Below, piece by piece: positions 43,012 through 64,000 of a DNA stretch of 64,000 nucleotides. Position 1 is the first letter of the stretch. Each line of letters starts with the position of its first letter. The position numbers and the translations under genes are program-made. The notes below the pieces were generated by a model. That model was not told the origin of the DNA, did not search any database, and saw only the letters and a program-made list of their open reading frames with translations. This DNA comes from Daucus carota subsp. sativus (lineage: Eukaryota; Streptophyta; Magnoliopsida; Apiales; Apiaceae), in assembly GCF_001625215.2 (NCBI RefSeq), contig NC_030383.2:11110779-11174778 (forward strand). The letters run 5' to 3'.

Positions 43012-45029
43012 GGGTTAATTATCAAACTCATCACTGAAGTGGACAAATGGTATCAACTTCATCACTGATCTCCACGGGGTCTCAAGTTGCTCACTAAACT
43101 CGCTTTATGGTATCAAACTCATCATTGTCGTTAAAAAAAAGTAACGGAGGTTAGACGGAGTGACAGATTGCCGGTTGATGGGGCACATTAATAAAAAAGA
43201 TTGAAGAAAAACAAATGAAAGAAAATAAAAAAAAAGTAGAAAATAGAAATGCCACATAATTTGAAGTTTATATGGAAATAAAGCATGCAAACTTTTTATT
43301 AAATTGATTTTAAGATATAATTATCTAAATAAACGTATCGAACTAAATTTAATATATAATTAACTAAACAATTAAGATTAACTTTTATGTTTTTTATTAG
43401 ATTATAATTATTTTTGAATAATATTGAAATGTTTTCTCTTTTAATAAAATTTATTTATGTGAATATTATTGTTGGCAAAAAAATATTTTCAATTTTTTTT
43501 ATATCACCAACTTTTTTAAAATTTTAAGAAAAACCTAGAGATTAAACATAAAGAAATTCATTTCGATTTTTAACACTTCTATTTCTTTTGGAGTTTCTTG
43601 TACCAAACAAAAACATGAAAATAAATATATGTGAATTTAACATATGAAGCAACACACATTGTCCAAATCTTCAAAAACAACACATAATGTTTAAAAATAT
43701 TTTTTTGCCAAAAATAATATTCACATAAATAAAATTTATTAAAAGAGAAAACATTCAATATTATTCAAAAAAAATTATAATCTAATAAAAAACATAAAAG
43801 TTAATCTTAATTGTTTAGTTAATTATATATTAAAATTTAGTTCCATACATTTATTTAGATAATTATATCCTAAAATCAATTTAATAAAAAGTTTGCATAC
43901 TTTATTTCCATATAAACTTCAAATTACGTGGCATTTCTATTTTCTACTTTTTTTTTTATTTTCTTTCATTTATTTTTCTTCAGTCTTTTTTATTAATGTG
44001 CCACGTCAACCGCCAATGTGTCACTCCGTCTAACCTCAGTTACTTTTTTTAACGACAGTGATGAGTTTGATACCATTAAGCGAGTTTAGTGAGCAGCTTG
44101 AGACCCCATGGAGATCAGTGATTAAGTTGATACCATTTGGACAAGAAAATTAGGGTTTTGAGAGTCGACTCCCAAAATTAGCCGTCACTTCTCCATTCTT
44201 CACCTTCATCCTCTACATCCACCAAATCATTTTCGCTCTCCCATCTTCTCCACTATTTACCTGTTTTTTGTTTTTCAATAAAATCGAGTGTTGCTTAAAC
44301 CTCGAAGATTCCAATCGAGTTTTATTTTCAGATCTGTTTCGGATTTGAGCTTGGACTTGATTGTTTTATGAATAAATCAGATCTTTTGAAATCAAAGGTC
44401 CGATTGTGTTTTTCCGTCTCGCCTTTTGGCGTGTGTTGATTTAGTACCCAATTTTTGGGTGTTATATTTGTGGTTGTTATGTATTCCTGCATTATGAATG
44501 AGAATGATTGGGATGGAGTTTTGGGAGATCTGGTTTATCGCATCATTAATACTTTCGGCATGTCTATAGCTGGCTCCCGGCATGTAGATAGCTGGGGTAT
44601 GCTTGGAACGGTGGTGATCGCATGTGCTCACCTTTCACAAATTATAGTTGTTCATTATTCGAGGATTCTTGTTCCTCATTGCTTAGTTTTTACAACTGAG
44701 TCGTCTGAACACCGCAACAGCCATGGAACTATTGTGAAGGTCAATTGTGAAGCTACCATTTTCGGGATTTATGTAGGCTGGATTACTCGAGAAGCCTTTG
44801 TATTCATTTTCAATTTCAAGAATCATTGGATTCATTGTGTTAAGCAGTCTGGAAACAATGCGGCTATTTGTTTAGCTCGTTTTATTGTTTATTAACCTGA
44901 TTGCATTGTCAGTTGGGGATCTGTCCCGACTAGACTTGTTTTAATTTAATGGAGTGAATTTGCATTTTGTCAAAAAAAAAAAAGTTGATACCATTTGTCC
45001 ACTTCAATGATGAGTTTGATAATTAACCC
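43012..45029. mobile_element. Foldback Mutator-like element, 2.0 kb, with 10-bp TSD
   Basis: The left end GGGTTAATTATCAAACTCAT and the inverted right end match for about 45 bases. TCTAGAAATA is duplicated at 43002-43011 and 45030-45039. Inside, an arm of roughly 43052-43500 is repeated inverted at roughly 43655-44143, making a long hairpin. Beyond the second arm, ~840 bases of different sequence hold an open frame at 44455-44895. Confidence 0.85.
44455..44895 (+). pseudogene. Open frame in the foldback element, possibly a captured RNase H-like remnant
   Basis: 146 codons open to the stop at 44893-44895; the first ATG falls near 44479. The end of the product (HWIHCVKQSGNNAAICLARF) resembles the C-terminal motif of plant RNase H-like (RVT_3) domains. 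The middle does not show the full domain. It may be a gene fragment picked up by the element. Expression and function are unknown. Confidence 0.35.
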
Positions 45030-51252: not shown

Positions 51253-51261
51253 TTATTATTT

Positions 51262-52794
51262 GAGGTAATTGCATATCACACCCCCTAAGTATCGTTCAAA
51301 AACGATAGAGTACCGATACTTTAAGAAACTCAACTCGCACCCCTTATCTTTACTTCTCAAAACCGATATGCACCCCCTGCCGTTAACTTCCGTTAACTCA
51401 GTGCACTCCGTTAAGTCAGTATATATATAATTGCAATTCGGACCCCCTAACTTACGTTCAAAAACGATATTGTATCCATATTTTTGAAAACTCGAATCGC
51501 ACCACCTATTTTTACATCTCAGGAACGATACGCAACCCCTCCGTTAAATTCCGCTACCTTCCGTTAAAATTCTCCCCCGTCTCAATTTACATGTCCCTTT
51601 TGCTTTTTGACGAGTTAAATTGACTAATTTTTTACCAACTATTTGAAAATATGTATTTATTATTTTAGAAAATAGAATAGATACCTCTATTAAAACAGGC
51701 TAGAAAGTATATTTTAATGTGTAACTTTCTATTTCCTAAAATAATAAATAAATATTTTTTTAATAGTTGGTCAAAAATTAGTCAATTTGACAAGGGACAT
51801 GTAAATTGAGACGGAGGAGTATTTTAACGGAAGGTAACGGAATTCAACGGAGGAGGTGCGTATCGTTGTAAAGATAGGTGGTGAGATTTGGGTTTCCAAA
51901 AGTACAGGTATAATATCGTTTTTGAACGTAAGTTAGGTATAATGTGCTTTTTATATAAGCCTCTTGTCGTTTAATCAAAAAGTAAATCTAGCCTATTTTA
52001 ATAGAGGTAAATAGTAGGGGGTCCGAATTGCAATTATCTCTATTATTTGTGAAATTCGGACCCTCTATTATTTGCGAAAACAAATAGACTAGATTTACTT
52101 TTTGATGATATTTTTTTTTTAAATTTTTGTTTAATTAAGTTATCCCCAAGTCAAAATGATTTTACATATTGAATGATTTTAAATTTTTAGTGACATGTGT
52201 ATTAGGTATTTAATATACACTATTTAAATATAAAAAATAAATATCATGTGATATTTATTATAAATATTACATAAATTTATCTATTGATTAAAATATATAA
52301 ATTTTAATTATTTTGTTTGGAAAAATTGATCAAAAAAATGTCATCAAAAATTAAATCTAGTCTATTTTAATATGTAACTTTATATTTTCTAAAATAATAA
52401 ATACATATTTTCAAATAGTTGGTAAAAAATTAGTCAATTTAACTCCTCAAAAAGCAAAAGGGACATGTGAATTGAGACGGGGGAGAATTTTAACGAAGGT
52501 AGCGGAATTTAACGGAGGGGGTGCGTAATGTTCCTGAGATGTAAAAATAGGTGGTGCGATTCGAGTTTTCAAAAATATGGATACCATATCGTTTTTGAAC
52601 GTAAGTTAGGGGGTCCGAATTGCAATTATATATATACTGACTTAACGGAGTGCACTGAGTTAACGGAAGTTAACGGCAGGGGGTGCATCTCGGTTTTGAA
52701 AAGTAAAGATAAGGGGTGCGAGTTGAGTTTCTTAAAGTATCGGTACTCTATCGTTTTTGAACGATACTTAGGGGGTGCGATATGCAATTACCTC
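51262..52794. mobile_element. Foldback Mutator-like element with nested MITE-like repeats
   Basis: The left end GAGGTAATTGCATATC is mirrored at the right end (GATATGCAATTACCTC). TTATTATTT is duplicated at 51253-51261 and 52795-52803 (9 bp). Arms of roughly 400 bases pair across the element. Inside them lies a second inverted pair (AATTGCAATTCGGACCCCCT near 51430 and inverted near 52620), and a partial third copy occurs near 52018. No coding capacity. Confidence 0.85.
51578..51828. mobile_element. Stowaway-like MITE nested in the foldback element
   Basis: Starts CTCCCCCGTCTCAATTTACA and ends with the inverse of CTCCTCCGTCTCAATTTACA. A further inverted copy of the same end occurs near 52465-52487 in the right arm of the host element. 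Confidence 0.65.
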
Positions 52795-53390
52795 TTATTA
52801 TTTTGCCTTGTATACAAACATTTCCAAGTTCTATTAGAATTGGGTTTTCTCTTTTTAGGGAAATGCTGGTGATGTGCATTTTGCATATAACAATTCAGTC
52901 ATGTCTTGATTTATTATAACCTTAGAGCATCTTCCAACCTGGAAAATTTTAGTTAAAAATTTACTGTTTCAAAAATAAAATTTGTATATGATATGTAGAA
53001 ATTTCATTGCTTAATGGTGCAAAACCCTGTTTTTATAGTATAGTCACCGGTGACTCTGAGAGGTTGGCTATGTTTAGCAGCTTGTGTATACCTAAAACAA
53101 GATTTCACATCATCTATTATTATATTATAACAATATGAAATAATAACATACTATTTTAAAATATAGATAATTAATATATCATCGATACAATATATATTAT
53201 AGGTCGAACAAATTTTATATAATATTTTGTAAGTCTTATTTAGTTAACCACTTATTGTCAATATATTTTAATTTGGTTAATCAGGATATTATTTATGATA
53301 AAATTAAAAAAATATGACTATTATTCTAGTACTTCAATTACTTTTATATTGAGCCTATAAAAGGGGTATAATGCAACAAACATATACTCT

Positions 53391-53583: not shown

Positions 53584-53612
53584 CCTTATCTAAAAGTAAA
53601 GAATCTGGTTGT

Positions 53613-53738
53613 GCGATGGAGTACACACAACCACTGCCTTCACTTATTGGCGGATTGTAAATCAAGATTCGTATTGCGATGGAGTACACACAACCACTGC
53701 CTTCACTTATTGGCGGATTGTAAATCAAGATTCGTATT
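53613..53738 (+). repeat. Perfect 63-bp tandem duplication
   Basis: Two copies start GCGATGGAGTACACACAACC at 53613 and 53676. The unit is 21 codons long, so it stays open in several frames and mimics a repeat protein. No evidence of a gene. Confidence 0.9.
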
Positions 53739-54122
53739 GTTCTGTCTTCTCTCTCGTTGTCCCTCGGTTCAAATTAGGTTTGTCACGTAATTTAATTGTT
53801 TTTTTGATGTCTTCTATATTATAATTTACATGTCAACTTTTGTAAAAAGAAAATATGAAGTTAGTTATTTCAGCTTTAGTGTAGTATAGTTCATTAATTT
53901 CAGTTTCAAGATCAATTTATATCAAATATTTCATACATTATTTCTGATCAATGTAATAAACAAGACTAAAATTGTTTATAAAAATTAAAATTTCTTAATA
54001 TACACAATTTTTGTAAAGGTAAACCTATAATTCGAAAATTTTACTATTTAGTTTGTGAGTTGGATATTTTAAAACCAAAATCAAAATAAAAAGTGGATTG
54101 TTAATTGTTATTAGTGTTACAG

Positions 54123-54374: not shown

Positions 54375-54440
<66 letters not shown>
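54375..54440. repeat. (TA)n microsatellite at the edge of the large element
   Basis: About 33 TA units, ending exactly where GGGGAGGGTTCCGGTACAAA begins. Confidence 0.95.
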
Positions 54441-54443
<3 letters not shown>

Positions 54444-54796
54444 GAGGGTTCCGGTACAAACTTTTTTAGTTAAAAACTTACAAACTTTTTTACACCATCA
54501 GATCTAAACAAAACAAGCGGCTGAGATTAAAAGATTTTGAAAAGGCGCGGTGGCAGTTTTGTAAATAACTGCAAGCCGCTCGTTTTCTGACACATTAATT
54601 AAAACGCACGATCTCCTAAATATTTAACTGCACGAAACCGCCATAACACTCAAACGACATTACACACAAACTCACTGCTACACACAGCGATTTTCGATCA
54701 TCATCTTCAGCAAATCTTAACCAAATCTTAATCAACTGCAAGTCTACATTCTCAAGCGAAGTCGTCGTTCAACTTTCAAGATCTTGATCACTAACA

Positions 54797-57700
54797 ATGG
54801 CTCCAAAGAGGAAAAGTGATGAATTACAGAGCGTCGCTGGTAATATCTCTACATTATTTCGTAAAAGCTTTGATTTAATAGTTTCAGTAAATTTAGGTTA
54901 AATGTTTGAGATATTTGTGCATTTTTTTCCATTTAGAGATTTTAGGTTAATTTTTTTGATTTTAGGTTATTCGGTTTAAAAAGTGTTGAATGTTTGATAT
55001 AATGTTGAATGTGATAATATACGTTTTGAACTGTGTTGAATAGTAAAAAATGTTTTGAAGTATTGAATATTTCGATTTTTATTTGTTGAATTTGTACTTA
55101 AAGTATGTTGAACATGTTTGAAAACCTTGTTGGAATGCTGTTGCCAGTAGATATTGTGTTGAATTTGTGAATGATTTGTGTTGAACATGTTTGAAAAACT
55201 TGTTGCACTGCTGTTCCCAGTGGATATTGTGTTGAATTTGTTATTGATTTGTGTTGAACATGTTTCAAAAGCTTGTTGCAATGCTGTTGCCAGTAGATAT
55301 TGTGTTGAATTTGTTAATGATTTGTGTTGAACATGTTTGAAAACCTTGTTGCAGTGCTGTTGCCAGTAGATATTGTGTTGAATTTGTTAATGATTTGTGT
55401 TGAACATGTTTGAAAACCTTGTTGCAGTGCTGTTGCCAGTAGATATTGTCTTGAATTTGTTAATGATTTGTGTTGAACATGTTTCAAAACCTTGTTGGAA
55501 TGCTGTTGCCAGTAGATATTGTGTTGAATTTGTTAATGATTTGTGTTGAACATGTTTGAAAACCTTGTTGCAGTGCTGTTGCCAGTAGATATTGTGTTGA
55601 ATTTGTTAATGATTTGTGTTGAACATGTTTCAAAACCTTGTTGGAATGCTGTTGCAAGTAGATATTGTGTTGAATTTGATAATGATTTGTGTTGAACATG
55701 TTTGAAAACCTTGTTGCAATGCTGTTCCCATTGTATATTGTTATTGATATTGTGTTGAATTCTGTTGAACCTATAGTTAAATACTTTAATTTGAAGAATA
55801 AAAACAATGATTTAATAAAGAATATAAGTGATTAAATTTTGTCAGATGCACCTATTCAGGAAGATCCTTTACTAGCAATTCTGCAAAATCCTACAAGGAC
55901 ATCATCACAAGAAAGATATGTTGTACAATGTTTAACTGAAATCTTTTCTAGTGAGAAATCACAGAATGTTCAGTTATCAACATCGATATGTCCTACAAAA
56001 TCACTAACTGGTATAGTGATGATCTCTGTATCCACCAGTACATATCAAACATCGATATGTCCTACAGAAGCTGCCATTGCTAATGATGAGGAATTTGATA
56101 ACTCATACTTATCTGTTGAGTTACAGAATGACTCTGATGAATGGTTAGCACTACAGGTGGAAAGAGATTTGATAATTGAATTATTTAAATGTTATGAATT
56201 TTTAATAGCTGTATTGTTCATATTTCATTATATTTTCTTTGAACAATATGTTCTTATTTAATTGCAGGGAAAAAATCATCAGTTCATGATGATATGGAAA
56301 AATCTGATACATCTGAATATCAACCTACTGATCAAGAAGAATCAGAGGCGTTGCAGACGGATGATGAGCTAGTAGAGACGTCAGATGAAGATCAGCTCAT
56401 TTCTACAATGAGAGATAAGATTTTAAAAAAAAAAGGAAAAGCAGAGTCAAGTACTGGTGCAAAAAAAAGAAAGGAAAAAGCGAAAGCTAAGGCAAAAGAA
56501 AGGCAAAAGGGAAAGCAGAGGCAAGATGAAGATGAAGATGAAGATGATGAAGATGACGAAGAAGACATACCAAAGGCAAGTTCTGCAAGGGATTTCTCCA
56601 ACAGAACAAGAACAAGAAATTCACCTTCAAAATTCTGTGAAGTTTTAAATCAACTATCTGCAGAACAAATACAATGGATAAGAGCAACAGGATTTCATGA
56701 GCTCCTTAATTTTTCAATTAAGGAGCTTCCACATAGACTGGGATTTCAACTGCTCAAATCGTTTGATGAGGACAAATGTGTCCTAAATTTGGAATGTGGT
56801 GAAATTCCAATTACTGAAGAAGATGTACATCTGGTTCTAGGATTACCAAAGGGCACTCTTCCTGTTGAACTTGAGACAGATGAAGACTCACAGGCAGAAA
56901 AAGAGAAACCTTTTAGAGCACAGTTTGGAAAAAGTCATGTTAGGACAAGTGATCTTGTCAGTGAGATTAAGAAAGGCACTGCTGATGATCATTTTAAGAC
57001 AAACTTTCTGGTTTTAATGGGGAACACTCTCATTCAAACAGTGTCGAACGGGCTTGTTGATCAGCGACTCGTTCGATTTAAAGGAGATATCAATCGCTGC
57101 AGTGTCTACAATTGGCGTTCTTATCTTTTGCAGAGTTTAAAAAATTGTAAAAAGGAATGGGCAAAGGATCCAGCAACAAAGTACTTTTGCGGACCTCTGG
57201 TTTTCCTCATTGTAAGTATATATTATCTATATTTTGTTGAATCTAATATTACAATTTGTTGAATCTAATATTTTGTTGAATCTAATATTTTGTTGAATCT
57301 AATATTAAAATCTGTTGAATTCTTGTTTCCAATGTTGAATATGTTGAATTTCTTTTTGAATTGTGTTGAACATGTTCAAAAATATATATTGTCATTATAA
57401 CATATTTTTTTATGTTATATGTAGTTGTTCTATGTGGATAGAGTGTGGATTAAAATTGAAACTGAAGTTGTCCGCACCATACCAAGATTCACAGCTTGGT
57501 CAGATAAAGATTTGAGAGCAAGAGAAAGGAAGGAAACTTCTGAAAATTTATTTGGAAAAGGAAGAATCAGGTCTGCAGATGAAAGCACTGAACAGACACA
57601 AGAAGTTGATAGAAATCTTGATGAAGAAAGAAAGAGAGTAAGTAAATATATGACTTTGTTTTTTTGACTTGCAATATTTTGTTGAATATATTAGTTTGTT

Positions 57701-60700
57701 TCTTTTCATTGAAATATGATGTTGAATCTGTATATCAATTCTGTTGAATATGTTAGATTGTTTTTTTTAGTTGAAATATTTTGTTGAATCTAAAATTAAA
57801 ATTTGTTGAATTTGTTAGGTTATTTCTTTAAGTTTCAATATTTTGTTGAATATATATATCAATGTTGTTGAATATATGATATTGTTTTTTACAGGAACAA
57901 ATGATTGTTGAATTAGAGAATTTGGCTTTTATCTTGGTTGAAAGTCGAAAGCAATTTGATGCTGCAAACAGACAATTCAACAAATATTTGAAAAGTTGTA
58001 TTGATTACAACACTGTAAATAATAATGAAGAGTTTCTGACGAGGGTTGAAGCTGCCCAAGTTTTTGTCTGTAGTGAGGCTGACCAATTTGAAAATCAATA
58101 AAGGCAGCAAGAAAAAGAAACTGAGGGAGCTTCTCAATATAATTTTGAACCATTGGGCAATCCGGTTTCTGAAGAAAGAGAAGTTCAAGCAAAAAAACAA
58201 GCTGAGGAAGAAAGACAAGTAGAAAAGGAAAGAAATATTCAGGAAGTTGAGGAAGAAAGAGAAGTTGAATCAGAAAAAGGAGCTGATGGAGTGCAAAAAG
58301 AAATTGAGAAAGAAAGACCTGTTGAAAAGACTGTTTCTCCGGTTCAGTCATCAAAAGAAATTGAGCAAGAAAAACCAGTTGAGAACACTGTTTCTCCGGT
58401 GCAGTCATCAATGGGAAGTGAGGTGATCAGAATGCTTGATGCTGCTGAAAAGGATTACCAAGAAAAAATCAGGGCCCAAGAAATGGCAAGCAACGTAAAT
58501 GTTGTTGGGATAGCAACGGAGGCTGTATCTGGGCTTCACGATGAACGCACCAGTGATACTGAGATGCCTGTTGCTGAACACGGAGCTGATGAAGAAGAAG
58601 CAGTAGAAGAACAAGCAGCACCAGAAGCTCTTGACGTCATTTCACGTAAAGCAGCACATCTTGTTAAAAAGGTAAACTATTAAGAATTTTTAATATAATA
58701 TAGTCGTGGGTTTAATATCACTTTATTCAACTAGTTCAACTGCCCAATAACCCATGTTCAACTTTTGTCTGTGTTGAACTTGGGTTCAATCCAGGTTGAA
58801 CATAGTTTATTTCTATAAACCAACTCAACCCCAAACATTATCTCGTAAGTGTGTGATTAGGGTTATAAATTGAAATAAAAAATGACATCTTTCTATACCC
58901 CCAACCAAACCCTTAAGAGTTTTTGTTATGTAGAGATTGGATCCATTTTATTCTCTATTTTAATTAATTTTACTGTTTTAGTATATTAAATATGTTTTAG
59001 TTCAACAGCCGATTAACCCATGTTCAACATTCGTCTGTGTTGAACATGTGTCCAAAGGAGGTTGAACATGTGTTACTTCTATAGTGATTGTTATAATGAT
59101 CAATAGGATGGAAAGAAAGTAAAGATTATATTCAACACATCAAGAAGGATGAATGTAGTATCTTCAACTGTTCCTCCTCCACAGAAGCTGACAATAAAAA
59201 CAACTGCCCAACCAAATGTGCAAAGCTCTGGAGAAGTCCTTCCTAGTTTTTCTTTAGGATTGACTCAAGTTGAAAAGGAAGCAGAGCTTGAAAGACAGCG
59301 AAAATCAGAAGAAGAAGCTGCATAGGTGGACAAGGGGAAAAGAATAATACATGCAGCTGAAGTTTGAAATCTCCCTGGAAGATAAGGTTAACAAGAATCA
59401 GCACAAAGATTAACAAAGAAGAGCAAAAGTTGAAAGATTGGCTTCTGACAATTGATCCAGAAGGATAGTAAGTTTCTTTTAACCTCCAGTCAAATTAAGA
59501 TTTTTGTTGAATATTGTATCATTTTATGTTGAGTATATGAATAATATTTAATCATATTTGTGTTGCAACAGTTTCCTTTACTTTGACACTGCAAACGCAA
59601 TTCTGGACAATTCAAATTGCATTTCTTTCCAGCCGAAACAGTTGGTGACGGCACAAGTTGTTGATGCTTTCTGCCACATTCTGAATATGAATGAAATGTA
59701 TAAAGCAGAACAATCACCTCTGAGACTATTTGTTCCTCATCATGTGACTGTAAGTGAATTGTCAATAGAGTTTAAAAAGTAAAATATATCATTATACCAT
59801 GTGAATAACATTTTATGATTACTTGTAGGTCTATGTTTTGAGACATTCAAATTCAGAGGAGGAAGAGCAACATTTCAAAAAGTTTGTAAGAGATTTTGAT
59901 GATGTTCTGGCTGCTTATGATCACATCAAATTCAACGATGTTGACTTGGTAAAATATTTACTTCATTATTCAGTGATATTATATATATGATAACTATAAT
60001 TTTAACTTATTTTAATGTTGCTGTATGAATGACTAATTATCTGTATATAATCATGTATTTAATATCACTGTATTCAACTACTTCAACAGCCCAATAACCC
60101 ATGTTCAACATTTGTCTGTGTTGAACATGGGTGCAAAGGAGGTTGAACATTGGTTATTTCTATACCCCAACCCAACCCTAAACCGTATCTCATAAATATG
60201 TGACTTAGGGTTGAAAATTAAAATAACAAATGAGGTCTTTCTATACCCCCAACCAAACCCTTTTGAGTTATTGTTTTTATCTTCTACTGATCAGAAATTT
60301 AACAGTGTTGAACATGGCTACAAAAAGGGTTGAACATGAGTTATTTCTATACTCCAAATCAAACCCGAAACACTATCTCGTAAGTATGTGATAAGAGTTA
60401 GAAATTGAAATAAAAAATGACATCTTTCTATACCCCCAACCAAACCCTTATGATTTTTCATTATGTAGAGATTGGATCCTTTATATTCTCTATTTTAATT
60501 AATTTAAATGTTTTAATTTAATTCTTTGTTAAATATCACTGTATTCAACTAGTTCAACAGCCCATTAACCCATGTTCAACATTTATCATTGTTTTTACTG
60601 TTTTGAGTTTTTGTTTTTTAGACACAGCATTCATTATATACTCTATTTTTATTAATTTTACTGTTTTAATATTTTCCAACAGATTTTCTTCAGCATGACA

Positions 60701-61314
60701 GTTTCCGACCATCACTACCTCTTATGTTTCAACATTAAAAAACCAAGTTTTGAGGTTATTGATAGTAGTGCTCTGCAGCCAGATTTCGATGCAAAGTACC
60801 AGCAAATACCTCAAAATATTGTAAGTAATTACTACTTTATTAAAATGATCATATTCTTTTTTGACTTGAATTTGACATGGATTTCTCTCAATTAATGTAT
60901 GCTTTTTAACAGAGAAACTTCCTTGTAAGATACATGGTTTTAAAAAATCATTCAAAGGCGAAGGACATAGCTTCTCTTGTGCCTGTTAGATTGGAAATGA
61001 AGTGGAGAACTGAGCACAATCATATTGATTGTGGTCTTTTTGTCATGAGACACATGGAGCACTACCAGGGTGTTTCAAAAAATTGGGATTGTGGACTCGC
61101 TGTTGAGGGAAAAGTCCAAGACCAACAGCTAGATGTTCTGAGGACAAGATATGCACACCAGATTCTAATGCATGAATGCAACAAACAGAAGCATCATGTG
61201 GAGTATCAGATTTTTGAAGAACATGTGAAAAAAGCTGAATTGGAGAAGCAGAAAGCGAAAGAAAAAAAGGAAAAGGATACTAAAGCTCCTGCAAAAAGAC
61301 AAAGACGTGCCTAA
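54797..61314 (+). pseudogene. Transposon-borne Ulp1-like (C48) cysteine protease gene, interrupted
   Basis: Readable exons: 54797-54839, 55849-~56156 (end uncertain), 56268-57211, 57425-57637, 57895-58671, 59107-59467, 59572-59749, 59829-59948, 60683-60820 and 60913-61314. The junction between the second and third exons does not fit in phase with the best donor. A Lys/Glu/Asp-rich region (56400-56580) is followed by a plant-mobile-domain-like block (IRATGFHELLNFSIKELP, EEDVHLVLGLPKG). Then come a charged coiled region and the C-terminal Ulp1 domain. The catalytic triad is present: His in DHHYLLCFN, Asp in FEVIDSS and Cys in HIDCGLFVMRHME. Breaks: TAA at 58099-58101, TAG at 59323-59325, and a one-base loss near 59366. 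Relatives cleave SUMO or SUMO-like conjugates; activity here is doubtful. Confidence 0.75.
55095..55750 (+). repeat. 73-bp minisatellite in intron 1 of the Ulp1-like gene
   Basis: About eight to nine copies with a regular 73-base step; for example GTTGCCAGTAGATATTG starts at 55286, 55359, 55432 and 55505. Each unit holds TGTTGAATTTGTTAATGATT and TGTTGAACATGTTT. Copies differ by a few bases. Minus-strand open frames rich in N, Q, S and T are artefacts of it. Confidence 0.95.
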
Positions 61315-61740
61315 GCACAATTTGATCAGACTTTTAAATGTTTTGCTTGTAAATATTTTGCTATTATGTGCATTTTGCATAATACATAATTCCTTGGTCA
61401 CCAAGAAATAGATATGTAATTGCATGAATGCTAATTGATCTGTATATAATTGTTTCTTTAGTATCAATGTATTTTATATGTACTATTCTTCCCCAGTTCA
61501 ACAGCCCATGAATCCATGTTCAACATTTATCTGTGTTGAACATGGTACAAAGACGGTTGAATTCATGAGTTATTCTATATCCCAAATAAAACCCCAAACA
61601 ATATCTCGTAAGTGTGTGATTAGGGTTATAAATTGAAATAAAAAATGACATCTTTCTATACCCCCAACCAAACCCTTAAGATTTTTTATTATGTAGAGAT
61701 TGGATCCATTTTATTCTCTATTTTAATTTGTTTTAGTTCA
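58715..61740. repeat. Dispersed ~250-bp repeat with a TTCAACA/TGTTGAA hairpin
   Basis: Related units start near 58725, 58998 (partial), 60066, 60300 (partial), 60540 (partial) and 61495. A unit begins TTCAACAGCCCAATAACCCA. It continues with the inverted pair CATGTTCAACA and TGTTGAACATG, and then TATCTCGTAAGTGTGTGATT and CTATACCCCCAACCAAACCC. They fill introns of the Ulp1-like gene and the gap between the two genes. Confidence 0.85.
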
Positions 61741-61860
61741 ACATTATTTATATACAAATTCAAGAATGAAAATATATGTGTTCAACATTATTTATATAGA
61801 AATTCAAGAATGAAAGTATATGTGTTCAACATTATTTATATAAGAATTCAACAAAACAAA
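61736..61860 (+). repeat. Three tandem ~42-bp units between the convergent genes
   Basis: Each unit reads GTTCAACATTATTTATATA, then AATTCAAGAATGAAA and ATATGT. They lie just downstream of the transposase stop, so they are probably in its 3' UTR, where the word reads TGTTGAAC in sense. Confidence 0.8.
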
Positions 61861-61894
61861 ACTTCAAAATAACAAATATTCAACTATACAAAAA

Positions 61895-63946
61895 CTAGAG
61901 TTCAAAATTGTCACCCATGCCACTTTCACTGTTGTCTGTACTTTGTTTTTGTTTCTTCTTCCCAACAGAATTCTCATCCAAATTTTGCATTTTTCTTACA
62001 GGACAATTCCTAAAGTCATGATAAACTTCTGTCTTGCAATACCTGCAAATCCTCTTTAGTTTACCAGAAAGTATAGTTGATTTTTCAGCAGCACTCTTAA
62101 TTCTCTTTGTTACACACCCTTTGTTCCGACATTGATTTGGAGGCTTGACTTCAATGTTAACTGGAATCTCTGATCCAATAAACTTTTCAACAACATCTTT
62201 CTTGTTTCCCACAACTAGCTTCCCTTCAAATTTCCAACCACGTAACTTCTGTTTTACATCTTTTAGACAACTTTGAATCAAATCAAGTGCTTCTTTATTG
62301 TCACCAGCCAACCCCATACACGAATTGAAATCAAACCAAATATCATTCACAATAACACTAAATTTCTCTTTATCATCACTTGATGTGCTTGAAACAAATC
62401 TTGTTGCATTTTTCTCAGCATTTTTCATCCATCTATTCAGAACAAGATGCCTTGGAAGCTTGTGCACAGGAACTTGTTTTAATGCAAGAATCAAATGACT
62501 GCATGGCAAACCAATTCTTTCAAACATCCTACAAGAACACTCAAGTTTATGATTTTCCAAAATGTGCAAAACCTGTACCAAATATAAGTGATTTAATATC
62601 AAATATAAAATACATACAAACATGAAAAATAAATTACATATATTCAACACTACTAAAACATATATTCAACACAAATTGAATTGTATTTCAACACAAACTA
62701 AAATATATTCAACACTACTAAAACATATATTCAACAAAAATAAATATATACAACACCCCTAAGACATGTATTCAACAACCCTAAAACATATATTCAACAC
62801 CCCTAAGACATTGTATACGAAATATACAATACATGCAAACATAAAAAATAAATTACACTAAAAAAGGCATTAAATAATAATCAAATGCAATCTACTAGTA
62901 CTTCAGAAATACCTGAAATTCTTTAGCAGCTTTAAGATCATGTAAAACAAACTTCTTTACTTCAACACCACTCATATCCTTTATTACCAAATGGAAACAA
63001 GCATCTCGTACTTGTTTCTGGAATTTATAAAATATTTCACGTGTGTATAACTCTGCAGCATCCTTCTCCAAAAATAGTTCTGTATCAGTACTTGGGAACG
63101 CAACATTAGACTTATGATTCAAGTCTGAATTGATATTACGTTGCTTATCCATTGCAGTCTCAAAACGTAGATAAAACTGAGATAGAGTATCACCAGGTTG
63201 ATGATAATGACTAAAAAATGAATTTGCACTTTCTGACCAAGATGTTGTCCGTAATATTCCTAATAAAGGATCTTCTTTGAAATATGCTGGAATCCATAAA
63301 TGTCGGCATTCATACATATCACACAACCACTCATTGTCAGTCATCTTAAACTCATCCATCAAAGATTTCCAACCAGCTTCAAACTCAGATATATCCAAAT
63401 TTTCACCCCATACAAAAGGTTTAAGCTTTGATAAAAATCCACCATCCATTGCCAATACCACACCAACCTAAAAATACATTTTAAAAAAAAAACTAACAAA
63501 TATCAGGCATACAAATTTCTCAACATAAAAAATAGATATATTCAACACTACTAAAACACATATTCAACACAAATCAATATATTCAACACCCCTAAGACAT
63601 GTATTCAACACCAATAAAACATATATTCAACACAAATACAAATATTCAACACAAATGTTATGGAGGTTCAACAGAAGATACCTTGGATGGAAATTTTTTC
63701 ATGATGTGCCACATACAAAGACGATGCCTTGTCTTTTCTTTATCAAACACATCAGCAATTGCTTGTTTCATTGCAGCACATTGATCAGTCAATATGCATA
63801 ATGGATGTCGCCCCATACAATTTAGTAAAGCTTGAAAAATCCATTTGTAATGAGCTATATCTTCTTTTGAAAGTAGACCAGCACCAAAAGTTACACACTT
63901 TCTATGATTGTCAACACCACAGATTGGAACAAAAACCATGTTATAC
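61895..63946 (-). CDS. FAR1-like MULE transposase, C-terminal part (5' end outside window)
   Basis: Exons on minus: 63946-63682, 63467-62913 and 62572-61895, joined in phase at GT-AG sites; more exons lie to the right. It resembles FAR1-RELATED SEQUENCE and Jittery-type transposases. The visible part starts in the DDE core (VPICGVDNHRKCVTFGAGLL). The second catalytic Asp is in CILTDQCAAM, then CMWHIMKKFPSK and a Glu candidate in SWSESANSFFSHY. The SWIM finger is CSCRMFERIGLPCSHL and a zinc knuckle CRYCKTEVYHDFRNCP follows near the end. The first catalytic Asp would be outside. No stops in the visible exons, unlike the partner Ulp1-like gene. It could be a domesticated FRS gene, but the repeat-rich setting favours a transposon. 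Confidence 0.85.
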
Positions 63947-64000
63947 CTGAAAACAAATATATGTTTATTAAGAATTGAAGAAAAAAGAGAATAAGCTATA

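Follow-up and report, generated by a model that had tools for sequence, protein, structure and literature searches.

The DNA analysed here is a stretch of 64,000 nucleotides from carrot (Daucus carota subsp. sativus; assembly GCF_001625215.2, contig NC_030383.2, positions 11,110,779 to 11,174,778 of the forward strand), which as a whole is called the window and is numbered from its first nucleotide. As judged from the predicted proteins, its right end is occupied by a Mutator-like transposon (MULE) consisting of a FAR1-type transposase gene on the minus strand and a convergent second gene on the plus strand, whose product combines a DUF1985/PMD-like region with an Ulp1 domain. The non-coding DNA of this element is packed with the word TGTTGAA, very often in pairs exactly 22 bp apart. 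All observations on the word come from this one copy of the element; the 5' part of the transposase gene and the right end of the element lie beyond window position 64000. The features are as follows (forward words read TGTTGAA on the plus strand, reverse words on the minus strand).

54441–54796, strand not assigned: putative left terminus of the element with its 5' region, lacking TGTTGAA on both strands; exact end placed by inference
54797–61315, plus strand: plus gene, read from its splice sites and checked by tblastn with the sister proteins P0121, P0123 and P0128
54797–54839, 55846–56166, 56268–57211, 57425–57637, 57895–58671, plus strand: exons 1 to 5
59107–59467, 59572–59749, 59829–59948, 60683–60820, 60913–61315, plus strand: exons 6 to 10
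54840–55845, plus strand: intron 1, a tandem array of 73-bp units with 22 forward words, pairs of which are separated by 22 bp
56615–57637, plus strand: DUF1985/PMD-like N-terminal domain in exons 3 and 4, from sub-threshold profile matches
57212–57424, plus strand: intron 3, eight forward words
57638–57894, plus strand: intron 4, seven forward words in 62-bp units; an in-register eighth word falls in exon 5 (57906)
58672–59106, strand not assigned: intron 5, two forward and two reverse words, composite site at 59001, dispersed repeat
59433–61183, plus strand: predicted Ulp1 (Peptidase C48) domain in exons 6 to 10, PF02902 above cut-off
59468–59571, plus strand: intron 6, one forward word
59949–60682, strand not assigned: intron 8, two forward and four reverse words, composite site at 60082, dispersed repeat
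61316–61894, strand not assigned: stretch between the convergent genes, one forward and six reverse words, composite site at 61497, 44-bp array at 61736–61867
61895–64000, minus strand: 3' part of the FAR1-type MULE transposase gene, running past the window edge; its exons are open here
63680–63946, 62912–63467, 61895–62577, minus strand: transposase exons, ends set by eye
62578–62911, minus strand: transposase intron, seven words, 7/7 in gene sense, spaced 22/41 bp
63468–63679, minus strand: transposase intron, seven words, 7/7 in gene sense, spaced 19/22 bp

An earlier note, made from the letters alone, had considered an element unrelated to the VANDAL MULEs of Arabidopsis. At the level of the superfamily this was wrong: the minus gene encodes a MULE transposase domain (PF10551, 78 bits, cut-off 27.6), which places the element among the Mutator-like transposons. 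The visible part of the predicted transposase also matches SWIM (26.7 bits), is 100% identical to carrot P0001, and its exons have no stop or gap relative to carrot P0002 (666 amino acids), which is 99–100% identical to the window in the second and third exons. P0002 gave 93.7 bits for MULE, 25.0 for SWIM and a partial FAR1 match of 26.3 bits (cut-off 28.1), the FAR1 region itself lying outside the window; the relatives P0010 and P0007 carry a full FAR1 domain (71.9 and 57.4 bits). The informative names among the best 120 of 374 relatives were FAR1-related, SWIM-type or MULE-domain proteins. The mudrA-type DNA-binding domain (PF03108) was absent from the profile matches at E up to 1. An (AT)n tract of 32.5 perfect units (54376–54440) directly abuts the presumed left end and may have been the insertion target of the element. 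No inverted copy of the first 30 bp of this end was found within the window, and no relatives of the element were found in the plasmids, viral contigs and bacterial and archaeal genome contigs searched.

The start and the later exon joins of the plus gene agree with the carrot sister proteins. Comparison with these proteins by tblastn revealed that the window copy is interrupted by in-frame stops in exons 5 and 6, the latter also containing a frame change. Among the best 7988 candidates, which were scored, the carrot relatives P0121–P0128 are 86–90% identical; since P0123–P0128 are spread over at least four different contigs, the Ulp1 gene is present in carrot in several copies. In P0123–P0126 the reading, compared by eye, departs from that of the window at an A-run in exon 3 (56425–56445), as if the frame had slipped between copies or gene models. 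The predicted protease domain is recognized by PF02902 both in the window version (31.6 bits) and in P0121 (32.1 bits; cut-off 20.7), a match that is lost when the charged tail is included in the scan. Its putative catalytic residues are His, Asp and Cys, of which His and Asp are invariant between carrot and the Asparagus officinalis protein P0130, while Cys was seen in carrot only, as P0130 stops short. A search of PDB with the Ulp1 region of the window gave no match at E up to 1, and a profile of three rows found SENP7 only (E 0.053 and 0.058). The quality of the AlphaFold models obtained for sister proteins was too low for use (mean predicted local distance difference test scores, pLDDT, 34.8 and 31.6), and the NCBIfam search returned nothing useful.

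The N-terminal domain matched PMD with 19.2 bits (cut-off 34.9) and DUF1985 with 16.9 bits (cut-off 35.1). On the strength of these sub-threshold matches the Ulp1 gene may be a distant relative of the VANC genes of VANDAL elements. P0130, the only non-carrot relative found, is co-linear with the plus-gene protein and 43% identical to it over the N-terminal domain. Asparagus also provided the best non-Apiaceae relative of the transposase among the 120 listed of 374, P0007, which is 47% identical to the carrot protein. Together P0007 and P0130 may indicate a two-gene unit that is old or was transferred.

TGTTGAA was counted in the element's non-coding DNA (4210 bp: all nine plus-gene introns, the DNA separating the two genes and the visible transposase introns), in the exons (5004 bp) and, for comparison, in window positions 1–54440 (54.4 kb); each region was set against 300 dinucleotide-preserving shuffles. 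On either strand 69 words were found in the non-coding DNA, where TGTTGAA is the commonest 7-mer. The plus-gene introns contain 42 forward and 6 reverse words (shuffle expectation 2.1 and 0.35), the minus-gene introns within the window 0 and 14 (0.00 and 0.18), and the between-gene stretch 1 and 6 (0.17 and 0.18). The comparison DNA was roughly at shuffle level, with 10 forward and 5 reverse words, 15 in all (9.1 and 8.7 expected). Introns 2, 7 and 9 of the plus gene, the 54 visible bp of the transposase intron at the window edge and positions 54441–54796 have no TGTTGAA on either strand. The word is followed by T or C in 29 of 31 non-redundant contexts, which gives the consensus TGTTGAAY. The packing of the word into the non-coding DNA of both genes, reported in the earlier note, was thus borne out. 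The note had also held the exons to be free of enrichment. They are about tenfold poorer than the non-coding DNA, yet their 8 words in 5004 bp (plus gene 3 forward and 3 reverse, expected 0.94 and 0.75; minus gene 0 and 2, expected 0.31 and 0.71) are a small excess over the roughly 2.7 expected. The segment 54960–55750, taken there for an intron of the plus gene, is indeed intronic, but the fit to the sister proteins extends intron 1 to 54840–55845. The minus strand of the array in this intron (54976–55831) is open over 136, 115 and 92 codons, and these open reading frames are a likely source of spurious protein predictions.

The orientation of the words follows the genes only in part. As the earlier note had it, most intronic words (56/62) read in the sense of their gene; introns 5, 6 and 8 of the plus gene, however, are mixed, with 5 sense and 6 antisense words taken together. 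To the left of exon 5 the non-coding words are 37 forward and 0 reverse, to the right 6 and 26. This flip inside the plus gene ruled out a pure gene-sense rule. Taking the middle of the element as the reference accounts for the orientations equally well, and it may be the two halves of the element, not the genes, that the words follow; the two rules nearly coincide because the genes are convergent.

The words are carried by arrays of different build, with units of 73 bp in intron 1, 17 bp in intron 3, 62 bp in intron 4, 44 bp between the genes, and 22 and 41 bp in the transposase introns; a dispersed repeat is common to introns 5 and 8 and the between-gene stretch. Across these differing arrays 27 same-strand pairs of TGTTGAA are exactly 22 bp apart. 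When spacers identical at 11 or more of their 15 positions were placed in one class, the 15-nt spacers of these pairs fell into 9 classes, whose representatives agree at 38.5% of positions as against 32% from composition. Consecutive spacings other than 22 bp are represented by one or two spacer classes each. The same arrangement emerged from an unbiased scan, in which dissimilar spacers were counted for all 7-mers at gaps of 4–60 and 12 chunks of 4210 bp served as controls. TGTTGAA-N15-TGTTGAA ranked first (10 spacer classes, 27 pairs), followed by TGTTGAA at N56, or 63 bp (5 spacer classes, 7 pairs). None of the 12 control chunks reached the reporting level of 4 pairs and 3 classes; with 6-mers 2 of the 12 reached 4 spacer classes, compared with 13 in the element. 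The dispersed repeat contains three copies of a composite site, TTCAACA-N15-TTCAACA-N8-TGTTGAA (59001–59044, 60082–60125 and 61497–61540), the inner part of which is an inverted repeat with an 8-nt loop. Neither this site nor the 22-bp spacing and the helical phasing figured in the earlier note.

The spacings are also in phase with the DNA helix. For 24 spacing classes the best period was 10.4 bp (resultant 0.68), and with the 22-bp spacing counted once it was 10.6 bp (resultant 0.72); results as good were obtained in 0.0002 of 5000 random sets over the periods tried and in 0.0014, respectively, where the classes are partly dependent and the null is uniform over 8–75 bp. The 139 pair distances gave a resultant of 0.58 at 10.5 bp, but these pairs are non-independent and were not used as support.

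Within a diverged array the word has stayed constant. In intron 4 (four 62-bp units, the last partial) all 8 word slots are intact, the second word of the last unit falling in exon 5, and 0 of 84 word comparisons differ as against 89 of 246 spacer comparisons; the slots were located via exact words, which may bias this comparison. In the 73-bp array of intron 1, 16 of 17 slots are intact. Intron 1, the 44-bp array and both transposase introns also contain altered words at a distance of 22 bp from intact ones. Within this one copy, constraint on the word is supported.

Other repeats were noted elsewhere in the window. A long inverted repeat (51255–51677 / 52380–52801) has arm pieces of 323 and 116 nt, 95–97% complementary, and matching open reading frames of 95 and 119 codons on opposite strands; the 119-codon frame had no Pfam match. 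A foldback-like inverted repeat at 43044–44139 has arm pieces of 84–144 nt, 90–98% complementary, with about 325 nt between the innermost arms, and positions 53612–53739 are a perfect 63-bp tandem duplication.

The arrangement was compared with known systems. In Arabidopsis VANDAL21 and VANDAL6, short motifs are dense, in one orientation and in tandem repeats, in introns and in intergenic and terminal non-coding DNA (PMC5735166). The carrot element resembles them in being a MULE with a second gene besides the transposase, in its motif-poor exons and in a dense same-orientation motif in introns and between genes, introns 5 and 8 being mixed (PMC5735166). The motifs themselves differ: VANC21 binds YAGTATTAY and VANC6 targets AGTTGTCC/AGTTGTAC (PMC5735166), as against TGTTGAAY in carrot. 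When compared by eye, AGTTGTAC, the AC-type motif of VANC6, matches TGTTGAAC at 6 of 8 positions, which may be chance. VANC proteins carry DUF1985 and DUF287 (PMC5735166), and some VANC genes, which act on their own kind, have an Ulp1 domain (PMC13317346). These Ulp1-bearing genes, of KIU and Kaonashi, resemble the carrot gene in being the second gene of a MULE and in encoding an Ulp1 domain (PMC13317346), and the opposite orientation of this gene to the transposase is seen in KI-MULEs (PMC2528002). KIU and Kaonashi, however, are MULEs of the MuDR/VANDAL type without terminal inverted repeats (PMC13317346), whereas the carrot transposase is FAR1-type. VANDAL belongs to group 45 and Jittery, with FAR1, to group 36 (PMC6446971). 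The carrot element also resembles the Jittery-like MULEs of grapevine and, as cited from others, melon, in which an ULP sequence lies downstream of a Jittery/FAR1-type transposase (PMC2528002). Motif arrays and anti-silencing are not described for these in the available part of that paper, whereas the carrot element has arrays.

A literature search from which subscription papers were mostly out of reach yielded no title or abstract that dealt with arrays of this kind, either in carrot or in Jittery/FAR1-type MULEs. Motif arrays of VANC are known already, as are VANC genes with an Ulp1 domain and the ULP genes of Jittery-like MULEs; phased arrays in the last of these are apparently new. A study of anti-silencing in Mu-like transposons of eudicots by Sasaki et al. 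(EMBO J, 2022) reportedly described VANC proteins with DUF1985, DUF287 and Ulp1, and is said to have found that specificity is decided by motif sequence, density and helical periodicity. If periodicity matters in this way, the carrot phasing is what a VANC-type system should show.

Taken together, these results suggest that the TGTTGAA(T/C) words rather probably are sites of an element-encoded protein, most likely the product of the Ulp1 gene acting against silencing in the manner of VANC. By this analogy the DUF1985/PMD-Ulp1 protein would bind TGTTGAAY words in introns and between the genes. Sites two helical turns (22 bp) apart, with others near multiples of 10.5 bp, would place it on one face of the DNA and might allow cooperative binding only where the word is dense. 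The bound protein could then block or remove silent marks over the element; that its Ulp1 part acts on SUMO-bearing silencing factors is speculation. VANC has been set against RNA-directed DNA methylation within the same non-coding DNA (PMC10398659). The VANDAL/VANC likeness drawn in the earlier note gained from the dense same-orientation tandem motifs beside an Ulp1 gene with a DUF1985/PMD-like domain.

Several points weigh against this interpretation. The element departs from VANDAL in its FAR1-type transposase, its sub-threshold DUF1985 match, the absence of DUF287 from the profile matches and its motif-free presumed left end. The transposase is FAR1-type by domain make-up (FAR1, MULE and SWIM), which does not establish a place in the VANDAL group. 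In the 73-bp array the word is scarcely more constant than its surroundings (0.991 vs 0.962), the exons share in the excess, and the single copy studied has a broken Ulp1 gene. When 45 distinct distances were each taken once, phasing was weak (resultant at most 0.27; no null was run) and was not used as support. Protein binding to the words is itself something we infer, as are the identity of the protein, its cooperativity, the anti-silencing effect and any role of the Ulp1 activity.

Other explanations of the words were considered. They could be binding sites of the element's own FAR1-type transposase, serving synapsis, self-regulation or demethylation; TnpA of Spm and MURA of MuDR are cited as transposon proteins that lower methylation (PMC10398659). 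In favour of this, the gene for the transposase adjoins the arrays, and a FAR1 DNA-binding domain is present in related proteins. Sites of a transposase are expected at the transposition ends, but the presumed left end (54441–54796) is free of words while introns deep inside the element carry them, and we consider this explanation rather unlikely. Alternatively, an old 22-bp minisatellite might have spread through the element and decayed, leaving the words as functionless remains. All arrays are indeed tandem or dispersed repeats, and copies are clearly related within the 73-bp array and the dispersed repeat. However, spacers of different classes resemble each other barely more than composition predicts, yet word and spacing persist, and in intron 4 the words are unvarying whereas the spacers differ in 36% of comparisons. 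Such a by-product is quite improbable. A single tandem satellite as the whole explanation, which the earlier note had named as grounds for giving up its claim, was ruled out within this one copy by the unrelated spacers (9–10 classes) at a fixed 22 bp and by the constancy in intron 4.

The words might, finally, serve the expression of both genes as splicing or enhancer signals within introns, recognized by host factors. This would agree with the predominance of gene-sense words in introns, but not with the six reverse words between the genes, the six antisense words in introns 5 and 8 or the word-free introns 2, 7 and 9 of the plus gene; nor would a fixed 22-bp DNA phase be expected of RNA signals. 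Such a role of the words is very improbable.

If binding by the Ulp1-gene protein is the correct explanation, anti-silencing by a motif code might extend beyond the VANDAL branch, with FAR1/Jittery-type MULEs having a variant of their own in which TGTTGAAY at two-turn spacing is recognized by a DUF1985/PMD-Ulp1 protein; we propose this tentatively, as a possibility that falls short of even. The co-linear protein in a monocot, Asparagus, would then imply that the module predates the eudicots or was passed from one MULE lineage to another. There would be a second lineage of transposons, found in a crop plant, that evades silencing with a short, phased DNA code and a protein of its own, and the so far unexplained ULP genes of Jittery-like MULEs would acquire a role. 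Because this code of word, spacing and phase can be read from the sequence, binding and specificity are directly testable, and it would offer another handle for sequence-specific changes of DNA methylation.

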